Shown in pieces: positions 23,883-27,840 of a DNA stretch of 50,490 nt. A program made the translations under genes and the position numbers. Numbering within the stretch: position 1 is the first letter of the stretch; every line of letters begins with the position of its first letter. Source of the stretch: Geobacteraceae bacterium (GTDB lineage: Bacteria; Desulfobacterota; Desulfuromonadia; Geobacterales; Geobacteraceae). Below the pieces are notes generated by a model. The model was not told the DNA's origin. It searched no databases and was given only the letters and a program-made list of their open reading frames with translations. The stretch covers positions 1-50,490 of the forward strand of contig JAMXLF010000009.1 in NCBI GenBank assembly GCA_024281055.1. The letters are read 5' to 3'.

Positions 23883-23956
23883 TGTTGCGGAAAGTCGAAG
23901 GAGTGGTAAATTTTACTCACTGCTACAACCGCTTACTCGCTGCAGCACGACACCAA

Positions 23957-23976
23957 ACGGTAGCAAAACGGTAGCA
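23957..23976 (+). repeat. GGTAGCA direct repeats, left side of the island
   Basis: Two copies of ACGGTAGCA at 23957-23965 and 23968-23976, 11 bases apart. Like repeats in the same orientation lie 3.7 kb away at 27676-27710. Short direct repeats of this kind are typical arm-type sites of tyrosine integrases near the ends of tRNA-borne elements. Confidence 0.55.
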
Positions 23977-24013
23977 CAAAGGAGGTCGTCAGTAAGAGAT
24001 GTTTTGTGGTTCC

Positions 24014-27000
24014 CTATACTGGGCCATTAGACTTTTCTATCATTTCGTTCATAAACTTCCGCAATTTTTCAAATGGTGGATCGACGATATCAGGGTGAAT
24101 TACTGGATCCTCGATTCCTTTCATCGCCGCACAGGCAGGATCATTGGGGCCAATTTGCCATGCCGGCACAACACGAAGTCGTCGTTTCTCTATTGAAAGA
24201 TCACTCGCATATGGTGGCATAGACTGAATAGCAGCCAAGAAGCCAGGCGCTAAACGATAGCGACCAAATTTCTTATAAATATAAAGAAATCGATCCAAAT
24301 TGGTACTATCTGTTGGCTCCATATCCTGCATTCGGTGTACTTGTAAGAAACGTTCCATCTTCTTTATCCTGCTGCACAGGTATTGTTCATTTACGCTTAT
24401 GGCTACCCTATAATGGGCAGGGTAATGTCGATGTATACCTGTTATAATGGTAATGCCTACCCACTCATCGTGGTCAATTTCTCCTAAACGTTTTCGCCAC
24501 CCACGGAAAATTTTCTTGCCTGCCTCAAAGTCCTTAAACGCCAGGATTAATTCGGGAATAGGTGGATCTTCCGGGCAGATAGCGAATCCCAAGCCGCGCC
24601 ATTGAGCTTTGTCCCACAAAGGCATGTTAATCGGGGATAGAATCCGGAGGTCCCGGTGCTTGAGACCATCAATGCCAAAAAGAGAATCAGGAGGTGGTCC
24701 CTCAGCAAAAGTGAACCCGGCAGTATCTGCCTCTTTCTTTGCCTCTTTCTCTTTATCTGTCAGCTGTGATGCTTTCCAGGGCTTGTTACGTTTTGGCTTC
24801 AGGCATTCAGTTATCGATTCATCGACCCAATCTTGAAGACGGTACTTGGGCTTGTCAGTTAAAACGTTGGTGAGAGCTAATGGCGATTGGGCAGCCCAAA
24901 AGGCTCGATCTTGGGCACGATCTTTAGAAAAAAGCTCTTCGAGTGATTTCAGTGAAAAGGGCACTTGAAGCTCCGCAACGAATATGGCCAATAGTTCAGA
25001 AAGTGAATGCTGGTACCCACTGTCTTGTACCAATCGTGAAGGAATTGTTTTGGGGTGTAATATTACGATGTGAGTTTCTCCACAGTCGTCTTCTTCCACA
25101 CGGGAGCGGATAATTGCACCTGATAGCTCAGCTTCCTTGATTTCCATCTTCAAATAAGGGCGGGCGGAATAATGTCTCTTCAACTTAACTGCTGTTGAAA
25201 GAAAAGACTCCAGAAACGCTAAAATGCCTTCTCCCATAAGAATAGAAGTAGGATTATTCTCCGCTTCCAGTGAAATCTCACAGCCCATTATTACTGTCCG
25301 CATTACGACATTATCGTCAAGGTGCCATTCCGCTTCTATAGGTAAATCAGCAGCTGCAGGTTGCTCCAGCCACTGAGAAAAGAACTTGTCCAAATCACCA
25401 TCTGGATCTCTATATTCTGTTCGAAACATATCCTCATAGCCAAGCGAAAATAAAGCAGCACCGCGCGCCATAAAAAGGGAAAAGTGTTCCAATATGCCTG
25501 CTGCATAGTTCAACTTGGGCCAATCTGCAAAGCGGGTCCTAAGAACCAGAATGCCTAGAACCACATCCATCAAGCCGAACTCTTCTTCAATTCTTTTTCT
25601 GGCCTCCTCGTTCAGTTCCAAAACACGGCTGATTAATCCCAGCCATTCAATCCACACCAGGACGCACGGCACCCGTCCAAGCTGCATCTCCACCCACACC
25701 AACTTGCGAATCAGGGGCAATGCCTGAGGAGCAATTTGCCCGCCTTTGGCATACTCGTATAAAGTGCGATCCAGAGCAACGATAAGATTCGCCCTTGCTG
25801 CCCATAAAAGTCCAGCTGCTTCATACCCCATCGCAGCTCCTACAACGGACTGCACGAATTCCTTTTTATGTTCGTCTTGCCCGAGAAGGCATATTGCTTT
25901 GGTAAACTCGTTAATGGCATCGTAAGTCTTACCCGTGTCAAGCTTCTGGAAGCCTCGTTCTAAGCGCAATTTTCCTTGCTCGGCCTCACCGACTCGCTTG
26001 TTCTGCAACTGAATAATAGCCTCAAAGAGTTCATCATAGGTTTCATCGTCAGCCGCGACGTGACCAAGTTCCTGGACGATTCGAACAACAGGCTCAACCG
26101 GATAATCTATGTGGCCTTCTGCTTTTTCCAAGATATCCCTGAGATTGGCGATCACCGAGGGTAATCGCTCCCTGTCGATAGCTGCATCAAGCAAGTCCAT
26201 CAATACAAGTTCAGTTCGAGCCCAGAGAGCACTGGTTGGTTTATCTAACATCGAAGCGTGACGCAATAGCGCTTCGCGCAACCTTTTGGTATAGGTAGTC
26301 CAGTCTTCATCGTTGTGCAAAGTGCCCTGTACTTGTCTCCAGGTGTTCCCGACTTGCCACAAATTAACCAAGTACTCAAGATCCCAAACCCACTCGGAGT
26401 TGATAACCAGAGGCTCTGCAATTTTGAAGAGTCGATCAAACTCAGTGAAGTCGTCGAACCACCAGTTTGCAGTCCAAGCCCTTTGGTAAACAATCCTGAA
26501 GACTTGCCTTAAATCATTTCTTTTCCGGGCTATGCGCTCGGCTTGATCAAATCGGCCATCGATTTCTGCCCTTGGGCGACCGAGGCCACGGGCAAGCAGT
26601 GCTGCCTGCAGACAGTCTTCGACGAGTTGATACTCGGAGTTTAGGTAGCGAGTTTGGTCTTGGATCAACCCATCGAGTTCATCAAGGTCACGCTTGCGCT
26701 TAGCGTCCAATGGTCCACAGGTAGCCTTTGATTCAAAACGCAGTGGATCGACATCTAAGGTTTGGAAAACCACATCCCAACGATGATGCTGAAAAACTTT
26801 ATCCATTATCCAGGTACGGTCCAGAACTCGAACATCAACATTCCATTGTTTCCGTAATTCATCTTCAACAGCAGCTCTGTCACGGTCACTGACCGCTTGG
26901 TTTGTCATGAAATAGATCACAGAATAATTACGGCCAGTGCCAAGTATCTTGCGAACATCGTCCTTAGCTTTTGGACGCCATTTCTTTTTGGCACTAAAGG

Positions 27001-27352
27001 CGAAAGCCCAGCGCTCTTGGGCTGCTCTCATCGGGTCACCTTCGTACCAACGCTCTGAAATTGTATTGGCTACAGGATAGGTCTCTGCGTCAACTTTGCT
27101 ATCTCCTCCTCCTGTAGGGCCAGTTTGGGGTAGGAGATTAGGGCAGAGTTCTTTCTCAGCCAAACGACGACAAAAGTGCTCAAAGCGGATCTCTTCTTTC
27201 CTTTGAGTGATGGTGTCAAGATGAAATTCGAACTGGGTTCGGCTCAAAACAGGTTCTTCTGAGAATACCGTATCAGAATACAGTTCGGGGCGACGTGCCC
27301 TCATAAAATCGGTCGGGCTGAATTTACTCGATGTCATGGGCAACTCTGCCAT
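24014..27352 (-). CDS. Large protein with N-terminal PD-(D/E)XK-like nuclease domain, function unknown
   Basis: 1112 residues, no family name recognised. Residues 45-190 look like a restriction-endonuclease fold: E58 in RFEHFCRRLAE, then TGPTGGGDSKVD with D84, a core strand WAFAFSAKKKW with K122 (S120-x-K122 in place of E/QxK), then YSVIYFMTNQ and a closing VDVRVLDRTWIMDKVF. The rest is mainly helical; about 470-560 (KTYDAINEFTKAICLLG onward) is TPR-like. No membrane helix, Walker A site or methylase motif is seen. The ATG has GGAA 7 bases ahead. The gene stands alone, between GGTAGCA repeats and beside tRNA-Leu, and is more AT-rich than its neighbours, so it was probably acquired. A defence nuclease is the likeliest role, by inference. 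Confidence 0.75.
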   Translation of the reverse strand: MAELPMTSSKFSPTDFMRARRPELYSDTVFSEEPVLSRTQFEFHLDTITQRKEEIRFEHFCRRLAEKELCPNLLPQTGPTGGGDSKVDAETYPVANTISERWYEGDPMRAAQERWAFAFSAKKKWRPKAKDDVRKILGTGRNYSVIYFMTNQAVSDRDRAAVEDELRKQWNVDVRVLDRTWIMDKVFQHHRWDVVFQTLDVDPLRFESKATCGPLDAKRKRDLDELDGLIQDQTRYLNSEYQLVEDCLQAALLARGLGRPRAEIDGRFDQAERIARKRNDLRQVFRIVYQRAWTANWWFDDFTEFDRLFKIAEPLVINSEWVWDLEYLVNLWQVGNTWRQVQGTLHNDEDWTTYTKRLREALLRHASMLDKPTSALWARTELVLMDLLDAAIDRERLPSVIANLRDILEKAEGHIDYPVEPVVRIVQELGHVAADDETYDELFEAIIQLQNKRVGEAEQGKLRLERGFQKLDTGKTYDAINEFTKAICLLGQDEHKKEFVQSVVGAAMGYEAAGLLWAARANLIVALDRTLYEYAKGGQIAPQALPLIRKLVWVEMQLGRVPCVLVWIEWLGLISRVLELNEEARKRIEEEFGLMDVVLGILVLRTRFADWPKLNYAAGILEHFSLFMARGAALFSLGYEDMFRTEYRDPDGDLDKFFSQWLEQPAAADLPIEAEWHLDDNVVMRTVIMGCEISLEAENNPTSILMGEGILAFLESFLSTAVKLKRHYSARPYLKMEIKEAELSGAIIRSRVEEDDCGETHIVILHPKTIPSRLVQDSGYQHSLSELLAIFVAELQVPFSLKSLEELFSKDRAQDRAFWAAQSPLALTNVLTDKPKYRLQDWVDESITECLKPKRNKPWKASQLTDKEKEAKKEADTAGFTFAEGPPPDSLFGIDGLKHRDLRILSPINMPLWDKAQWRGLGFAICPEDPPIPELILAFKDFEAGKKIFRGWRKRLGEIDHDEWVGITIITGIHRHYPAHYRVAISVNEQYLCSRIKKMERFLQVHRMQDMEPTDSTNLDRFLYIYKKFGRYRLAPGFLAAIQSMPPYASDLSIEKRRLRVVPAWQIGPNDPACAAMKGIEDPVIHPDIVDPPFEKLRKFMNEMIEKSNGPV

Positions 27353-27675
27353 AATTTATTTCCAATCATAGCGGTTAACGGCTGGGCTTCTTTACCGTTC
27401 GTTTTCTGCTTCTACACTTTCGGCTGCGCAGAATTATAAAATAAATTATTAACGAATCTTAGAGCATGCTAGTTTTCCGAGCAAGCTAAAAATCGTGGAA
27501 TTCTATCGAGATGGATTTGTTTCTGCGATCTAAGGTATTCAGGAGAGATTAACGGTGTGATTGGTAGATGAGGGTGCGAATCGACCATGCTCCCACCAGC
27601 ATACACGTCTGGTGAGAGCACTATTCACAAGTGAAATATTTGTAACCATTCGAAATTTAGAAGATAAATACGCAA

Positions 27676-27710
27676 ATGGTAGCACAAACGGTAGCATGAA
27701 AATGGTGCCA
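27676..27710 (+). repeat. GGTAGCA direct repeats, right side of the island
   Basis: ATGGTAGCA (27676-27684), ACGGTAGCA (27688-27696) and a decayed ATGGTGCCA (27702-27710), spaced 12-14 bases. They match the pair at 23957-23976 in sequence and direction. They start 44 bases from the 3' end of the tRNA gene, where integrase arm sites are expected. Confidence 0.55.
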
Positions 27711-27753: not shown

Positions 27754-27840
27754 TGGTGCGGTGGAATGGACTCGAACCATCACGAGATTGCTCCCGCCAG
27801 CCCCTCAAGCTGGTGCGTCTACCAATTCCGCCACCACCGC
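27754..27840 (-). tRNA. tRNA-Leu (anticodon GAG)
   Basis: Type II (long variable arm) tRNA of 87 bases including an encoded CCA. The acceptor arms GCGGTGG (27834-27840 on the plus strand, read in reverse) and CCACCGC pair fully. The D arm has AATTGGTAGACGC, the anticodon loop reads CTTGAGG with anticodon GAG, the variable arm is CGGGAGCAATCTCGT-like, and the T arm has GGTTCGAGTCC. The 3' end faces the one-gene island, the usual position for integrated elements. Confidence 0.95.

Follow-up and report, generated by a model that had tools for sequence, protein, structure and literature searches.

Once a terminase, a portal or a different phage protein has been recognized, the nucleases of Avs1–4 kill by cleaving the genomes of both phage and host, whereas restraint and sensing are likely both functions of the C-terminal repeat in Avs5 (in the parts of PMC12931631 covered here). 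In a hotspot of P4-like satellites, the N-terminal effector of STAND proteins is swapped among TIR, SIR2 and nuclease domains (in the parts of PMC9122126 covered here). The subject of this analysis is a gene for a 1112-amino acid protein located within a stretch of 50,490 nucleotides (hereinafter, the window) from a Geobacteraceae bacterium (GenBank assembly GCA_024281055.1, contig JAMXLF010000009.1, positions 1 to 50,490). The protein combines an N-terminal nuclease domain, whose best structural match is the nuclease of Avs4, with a TPR-like array and two alpha/beta domains, the second of which (hereinafter, CT) is also found fused to an unrelated effector. With a rough probability of 0.72, the gene is a one-protein anti-phage system of the abortive-infection type that is carried as a mobile cassette. 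Loci of the family are denoted below by L numbers. The gene and its domains, all on the reverse strand, are the following:

24014..27352, reverse strand: full gene, encoding the nuclease, the TPR-like array and the two alpha/beta domains (open reading frame (ORF) list, alignment, model)
26747..27247, reverse strand: PD-(D/E)XK nuclease domain, residues 36–202 (E58, D84, D88, S120, K122, K128), from the alignment of 24 domains and the fold matches to Avs4, AspBHI, MspJI and FokI
25334..26710, reverse strand: TPR-like helical array, residues 215–673 (model and VIA-align comparison with repeat proteins)
24848..25312, reverse strand: alpha/beta domain, about residues 681–835, partly common with a sister clade (model; hhalign)
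24038..24667, reverse strand: C-terminal alpha/beta domain CT, about residues 896–1105 (sequence searches; model confidence, pLDDT, mostly 79–91)

The nuclease domain

The reading frame, which begins with ATG in the ORF list, is genuine; because the protein aligns over its full length with nine others at 25–60% identity, the resemblance is beyond chance. A preliminary description of this DNA had singled out E58, GGGDSKVD (D84) and FSAKKKW (K122) as signs of a restriction-endonuclease fold, and all three are in place, as are D88 and S120. Across 24 nuclease domains, which are not all independent (L009/L023 and L006/L022 are close pairs), F57, T77, G78, P79, G83, D84, D88, E90, A118, K128 and D178 are invariant, and E58 is kept in 23, L025 having Q instead. 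Every one of the 20 main-clade domains has the lysine K122, so that the conservation of D84 and K122 expected in the preliminary description holds throughout that clade. Judged by the alignment, the domain appears to possess the acidic residues and the lysine that make up the active site in the PD-(D/E)XK superfamily. Given that D84 and D88 are both conserved, the metal ligand could be either or both. In Mrr-type enzymes, with a GGD-x-x-x-D-like pattern, the second aspartate is catalytic, and the resemblance to this pattern makes D88 a candidate catalytic residue beside D84.

The comparison of predicted structures points in the same direction. When residues 1–211 are modeled alone (pLDDT 79.8), the first-ranked Foldseek match in the PDB is 8dgf_B, Avs4 in complex with a phage portal, with an E-value of 3.6e-3 that is weak taken alone. 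The same chain tops the VIA-align comparison (chain residues 2–175, Z 10.8, root-mean-square deviation 3.3, 142 residues), followed by AspBHI (Z 10.0), MspJI (9.1), FokI (8.9) and PaqCI (8.1). The top ten rows, spanning Z 7.6–10.8, are all Avs4 or restriction or related endonucleases, and unrelated folds, for example, RNA polymerase subunit 5, enter below about Z 6. In BFVD, the best two matches of the nuclease model have E-values of 1.6e-4 (unnamed) and 6.0e-4 (by name, a phage restriction endonuclease). The PD-(D/E)XK fold anticipated in the preliminary description is thus the one that the model matches, and a restriction-endonuclease core fold of this superfamily is supported as a prediction. 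A Pfam search with the 24 domains yields 14 families, each in one or two members, with the best rows being DUF1702 (E 0.0013, one member) and Mrr_cat (E 0.044, one member).

The C-terminal part and comparison with described systems

The approximately 900 residues downstream of the nuclease, previously taken as a single helical part, do not form one unit: in the full-length model (pLDDT 77.2), residues 215–673 are a TPR-like superhelix, and two alpha/beta domains follow. The superhelix aligns with LGN, Rap, KLC and other repeat proteins at VIA Z 12.5–17.3 among the 50 rows shown, although several of these matches have a large root-mean-square deviation and such Z values are common among repeats. 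The fold search with the whole model is filled by repeat proteins and carries no information on the other domains. The absence of a Walker A motif (GxxxxGK[S/T]) in the preliminary description extends to all 14 full-length members, and the absence of a membrane segment is likewise borne out, such a segment being unlikely because the highest 19-residue Kyte–Doolittle mean of the protein is only 1.55.

The domain with the strongest bearing on sensing is CT. It recurs in L014, a 372-amino acid protein of a Lactiplantibacillus plasmid that consists of an N-terminal SEFIR/TIR domain and CT and, being only 372 amino acids long, has no room for a TPR array. The relationship is detected by tblastn with an E-value of 7e-4 for the window protein and 8e-5 for the C-terminal stretch alone, and by hmmsearch among 687 ORFs with an E-value of 6.5e-19, using a profile built without L014; the 16 CT rows, L014 among them, share nine invariant columns. 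The presence of CT on both a nuclease and a SEFIR effector suggests a sensor of the trigger more readily than a reader of DNA. As worded in the preliminary description, with one helical part of about 900 residues as the sensor, the assignment of sensing is not supported; the strongest clue is the alpha/beta domain held in common with the SEFIR protein. The L014 gene (L014:3982-5100) lies on a 15-kb plasmid, with an AbiEii-type gene upstream. Apart from the genome of the window, none of the genomes in the phylum sample (394) has a match to CT. Matches to CT only (L018, L093 and a piece in L020) were rejected as new architectures as they look like remnants of broken genes.

A sister clade (L015, L016, L017 and L019) aligns with the family by hhalign over residues 36–808 (probability 99.8, E 5e-30). 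Its annotated proteins are 965–1016 amino acids long and share with the family the nuclease, the TPR region and the first alpha/beta region, without a match to the CT profile and with E, Q or N at the position of K122; this clade, too, is unnamed.

Among the described systems, the closest is Avs4, which resembles the window protein in the nuclease fold (best PDB match) and in being one large protein with the effector first and a helical repeat after it. In contrast to Avs4, a STAND NTPase is missing from the window family (none of the 14 members has a Walker A motif, and Pfam and PADLOC give no NTPase match), the helical repeats of the window protein directly follow the nuclease and precede two extra alpha/beta domains, and no sequence match to the Avs4 PDB chain is found. 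The window protein has the N-terminal nuclease effector characteristic of Avs1–4 and also a TPR-like repeat, which may or may not be a counterpart of the C-terminal Avs repeat that senses a phage terminase or portal protein; the lack of Walker A throughout the 14 members places it outside the Avs/STAND proteins. AspBHI and MspJI have the same nuclease fold but a modified-base reading domain where the window protein has the TPR-like array, the alpha/beta domain and CT; there is no sequence match to either, and a Pfam search of the window protein at E-values up to 1 gives no match, to a modified-base recognition domain or otherwise. The SEFIR effector L014 has the same CT, but a SEFIR/TIR domain instead of the nuclease. 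Membership of the window protein in bSEFIR (PADLOC PDLC03957) was rejected, given that its N-terminus is a nuclease and that it has no PADLOC match at E-values up to 1. In L014, it is the SEFIR part that the PADLOC bSEFIR model recognizes; the C-terminal part of L014 alone is unmatched, and that of L029 is matched. The idea that L014 is a bSEFIR protein sharing the bSEFIR C-terminus with the window gene was dropped accordingly, and because the PADLOC model has a different domain at its C-terminal end, only the fusion of SEFIR with CT is claimed.

Pfam, NCBIfam, PADLOC 2.0.0 and PHROGs give no convincing match for the window protein, the ten members of alignment A1 yield nothing convincing in PADLOC and nothing above chance level in Pfam (best E 0.14), and PDB sequence searches with the protein and three alignments give no convincing match. 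The lack of a named system in the preliminary description is consistent with these libraries. The architecture was not found in the literature by titles and openings of abstracts, a search that mostly did not extend to subscription papers and supplements, and the texts searched contain no mention of six homologue accessions. PMC12799240 and PMC7159879 describe nuclease–protease pairs and other effector systems, and this protein does not appear in the parts of them covered here. In the covered part of PMC13092281, 31 more systems validated with DefensePredictor are described, 13 of them with PD-(D/E)XK domains; a relative may be among the systems validated there, and newness is judged here against the searched libraries only. 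The protein is best read as similar to Avs4 in its working and outside Avs, an effector-plus-repeat-sensor kind unmatched in the libraries searched.

Distribution, cassette and gene surroundings

The family is sparse and mobile, being spread over plasmids, prophage-like contigs and scattered bacteria. Only 2 of 97 relatives have matches, namely, the genome of the window itself and G070, and in an even sample of the phylum, 1 of 395 genomes has a match, again that of the window. The closest copy found, at 60% identity, is in a Methylococcaceae genome and is the sole match from one scan of genome contigs, with the window protein as the only query. A tblastn search with the window protein finds 19 plasmid records, in 11 of which a single place accounts for 80% or more of the query, from hosts that include Nostoc, Agrobacterium, Cupriavidus, Burkholderia, Pseudosulfitobacter, Cohnella and Sphingobium; 13 of the 19 are typed as conjugative or mobilizable. 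One phage-labeled, unannotated gut record also has a match. With alignment A1 (ten members) as the query, five viral contigs are matched, compared with none when the query is the window protein alone or L014. PHROGs searches of four of the five fetched stretches (L024, L025, L027 and L028; L026 was left out) detect terminase, portal or baseplate genes in all four: terminase in L024, L025 and L028, portal in L028 and baseplate in L027. In the tree of 14 full-length members (supports mostly 0.87–1.0, with one deep node at 0.15), four viral contigs fall in four separate places, the window groups with L004, and Cohnella (Bacillota) groups with a viral contig. Homologues are thus found on plasmids and prophage-like contigs, and several near defense genes, rather than in the housekeeping operons that would have spoken against a defense role. 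Some copies are broken (L002/L003, L012 and L021); that of G070 (contig C281) consists of two frames, L002 and L003, and reflects either a broken gene or an assembly error.

In the window, the gene occupies an insert delimited by paired repeats next to a tRNA gene:

23955..23980, forward strand: left paired direct repeat (GGTAGCA twice, the pair itself at 23959–23976), cassette boundary (repeat search)
27674..27700, forward strand: right paired direct repeat in the same orientation (GGTAGCA pair itself at 27678–27696), cassette boundary (repeat search)
27754..27840, reverse strand: tRNA-Leu (gag), intact, just beyond the cassette (tRNA prediction)

In the assembled 4.4-Mb genome, the paired GGTAGCA pattern occurs twice on the forward strand, both times at the cassette, and never on the reverse strand, with 0 and 1 matches for a reversed control pattern; it does not occur in 100 shuffles of the window. 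Among the other 57 relatives, three have a single match with a different spacer, and the control pattern has one or two matches in several. The 3.7-kb insert is interpreted as a mobile cassette whose arm-type sites would belong to a recombinase, presumably lost or absent. The preliminary description placed the gene beside a tRNA, which holds insofar as tRNA-Leu (gag) adjoins. A terminator-like hairpin directly 3' of this tRNA, which by eye is likewise present in the eight relatives compared, is intact, and the insert starts with the paired direct repeat past it; therefore, the insertion is beyond the tRNA, not inside it. A segment of the cassette at 27540–27640 resembles, by eye, a degenerate tRNA piece (GCTCCCACCAGC..CTGGTG) and could be an old attachment site.

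The gene is, as previously described, AT-richer than its surroundings (GC content 0.472; 0.453 at third codon positions versus 0.65–0.78 in eight neighboring genes) and stands alone. No convincing second gene is listed between the GntR-type gene and the tRNA among frames of at least 80 amino acids, the other such frames being one of 82 amino acids within the gene and two of about 90 that overlap the tRNA. On the left are lactate permease-like and glycolate-oxidase-like genes and the GntR-type regulator and, on the right, tRNA-Leu, secG, tpiA, pgk and gapA (protein genes named from their translations by eye).

Elsewhere in the family, the surroundings are partly rich in defense genes. PADLOC matches lie near four of the six loci scanned: PycC and PycTM (Pycsar) adjoin the split G070 copy (L002), the Burkholderia copy has IetS at a distance of about 2 kb, the Sphingobium copy is immediately followed by HamA and HamB (Hachiman), and an Agrobacterium copy lies about 0.4 kb from a protein that matches both the argonaute-associated REase and the Avs2 models. 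By annotation only, an S8 peptidase with an ATPase and a SAVED protein are near the Bradyrhizobium remnant, AbiEii and NACHT proteins are near the Nostoc copy, Shedu is beside sister-clade L016, and an S8 peptidase and ATPase pair and a kinase are near sister-clade L015. Two family copies are near partition genes. The association with defense genes is suggestive. Several other features of these neighborhoods were observed. On the other side of the G070 copy, there is a gene that resembles Fic by eye; pairs of S8 peptidase and ATPase (Iet-like) recur in both clades, at L008 (IetS by PADLOC) and at L021 and L015 (annotation only); a serine-threonine kinase gene (L024:13335-14774) follows the family member on the opposite strand of a prophage-like contig; and the Cupriavidus copy is followed by a protein kinase gene (L007:13395-14702).

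Proposed mechanism, alternatives and implications

Under the proposed mechanism, the N-terminal PD-(D/E)XK nuclease, with its Avs4-effector fold, would be the killing end of the protein, and the TPR-like array together with CT would keep it inactive and would also recognize something made by the phage, most likely a protein. Once bound, this trigger would alter the conformation or the oligomeric state and release the nuclease, and the freed nuclease would cut DNA, halting phage production and probably sacrificing the cell. Because no STAND NTPase is present between the sensor and the effector, activation should need no ATP. A broader proposal, with somewhat less than an even chance of being right, is that these proteins represent a STAND-free class of one-protein immune receptors, in which an Avs4-type nuclease is joined directly to a TPR array and CT, with CT serving as a portable sensor for two unrelated killing chemistries, that of the nuclease and the SEFIR/TIR-type one of L014.

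Several observations weigh against the anti-phage interpretation. The position of K122 is occupied by E, Q, N and E in the four sister-clade domains, so that the expected conservation of this lysine fails there (lost in 4 of 4). Foldseek gives no PDB match for the nuclease model at an E-value of 0.001 or better, and the active-site loop 77–84 is modeled with a pLDDT below 50. Only one non-nuclease CT protein, L014, was found. With regard to gene context, the window copy has no adjoining defense gene, the PADLOC run covered ten neighbor proteins picked by eye at six loci, and PADLOC gives no match at L004 and L005, where four proteins were scanned. Six control stretches from the same plasmids, judged by annotation only, unlike the PADLOC-scanned gene neighborhoods, contain one S8 peptidase and ATPase pair, and two to three of them have toxin–antitoxin-type genes.

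The fold comparison would also suit a type IV-like restriction enzyme, one that would recognize modifications in phage DNA through its C-terminal domains and cleave in their vicinity, with the cell surviving, inasmuch as AspBHI and MspJI, the next matches after Avs4, are modification-dependent and one of the 24 members has the weak Mrr_cat match. However, another fusion partner of CT is a SEFIR/TIR-like domain, with a chemistry that is not directed at DNA sites, and CT is therefore unlikely to be a DNA target-recognition domain; moreover, TPR arrays usually bind proteins. Such an enzyme is, accordingly, an unlikely explanation. The typing of most plasmid records as conjugative or mobilizable and the two copies near partition genes bring up a toxin, a nuclease directed against competing plasmids or acting upon the loss of its own element, but this is distinctly improbable in view of the lack of a conserved adjoining partner of antitoxin size in the annotated loci and the occurrence of copies in prophage-like contigs and, in the window, amid metabolic genes. 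Least is to be said for an inactive or housekeeping nuclease-like protein, involved, for example, in DNA repair: the broken copies and the sister clade without K122 are what such a protein could leave, but the family is missing from nearly all relatives searched, spreads horizontally and retains K122, D84 and D88 in 20 of 20 main-clade domains, which makes this explanation very improbable. An abortive-infection system thus remains the preferred reading, and the preliminary description of a single-gene defense system is, on the whole, partly supported.

Annotation based on Pfam, NCBIfam, PADLOC 2.0.0 and PHROGs would miss the window protein, which is unmatched in all four. If the proposed mechanism is correct, an Avs-type nuclease can be controlled without a STAND ATPase; if the broader proposal of a STAND-free receptor class is also correct, CT would be a small, separable phage sensor. 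The CT-nuclease and the CT-SEFIR protein make up a natural pair for separating sensing from killing in bacterial immunity.

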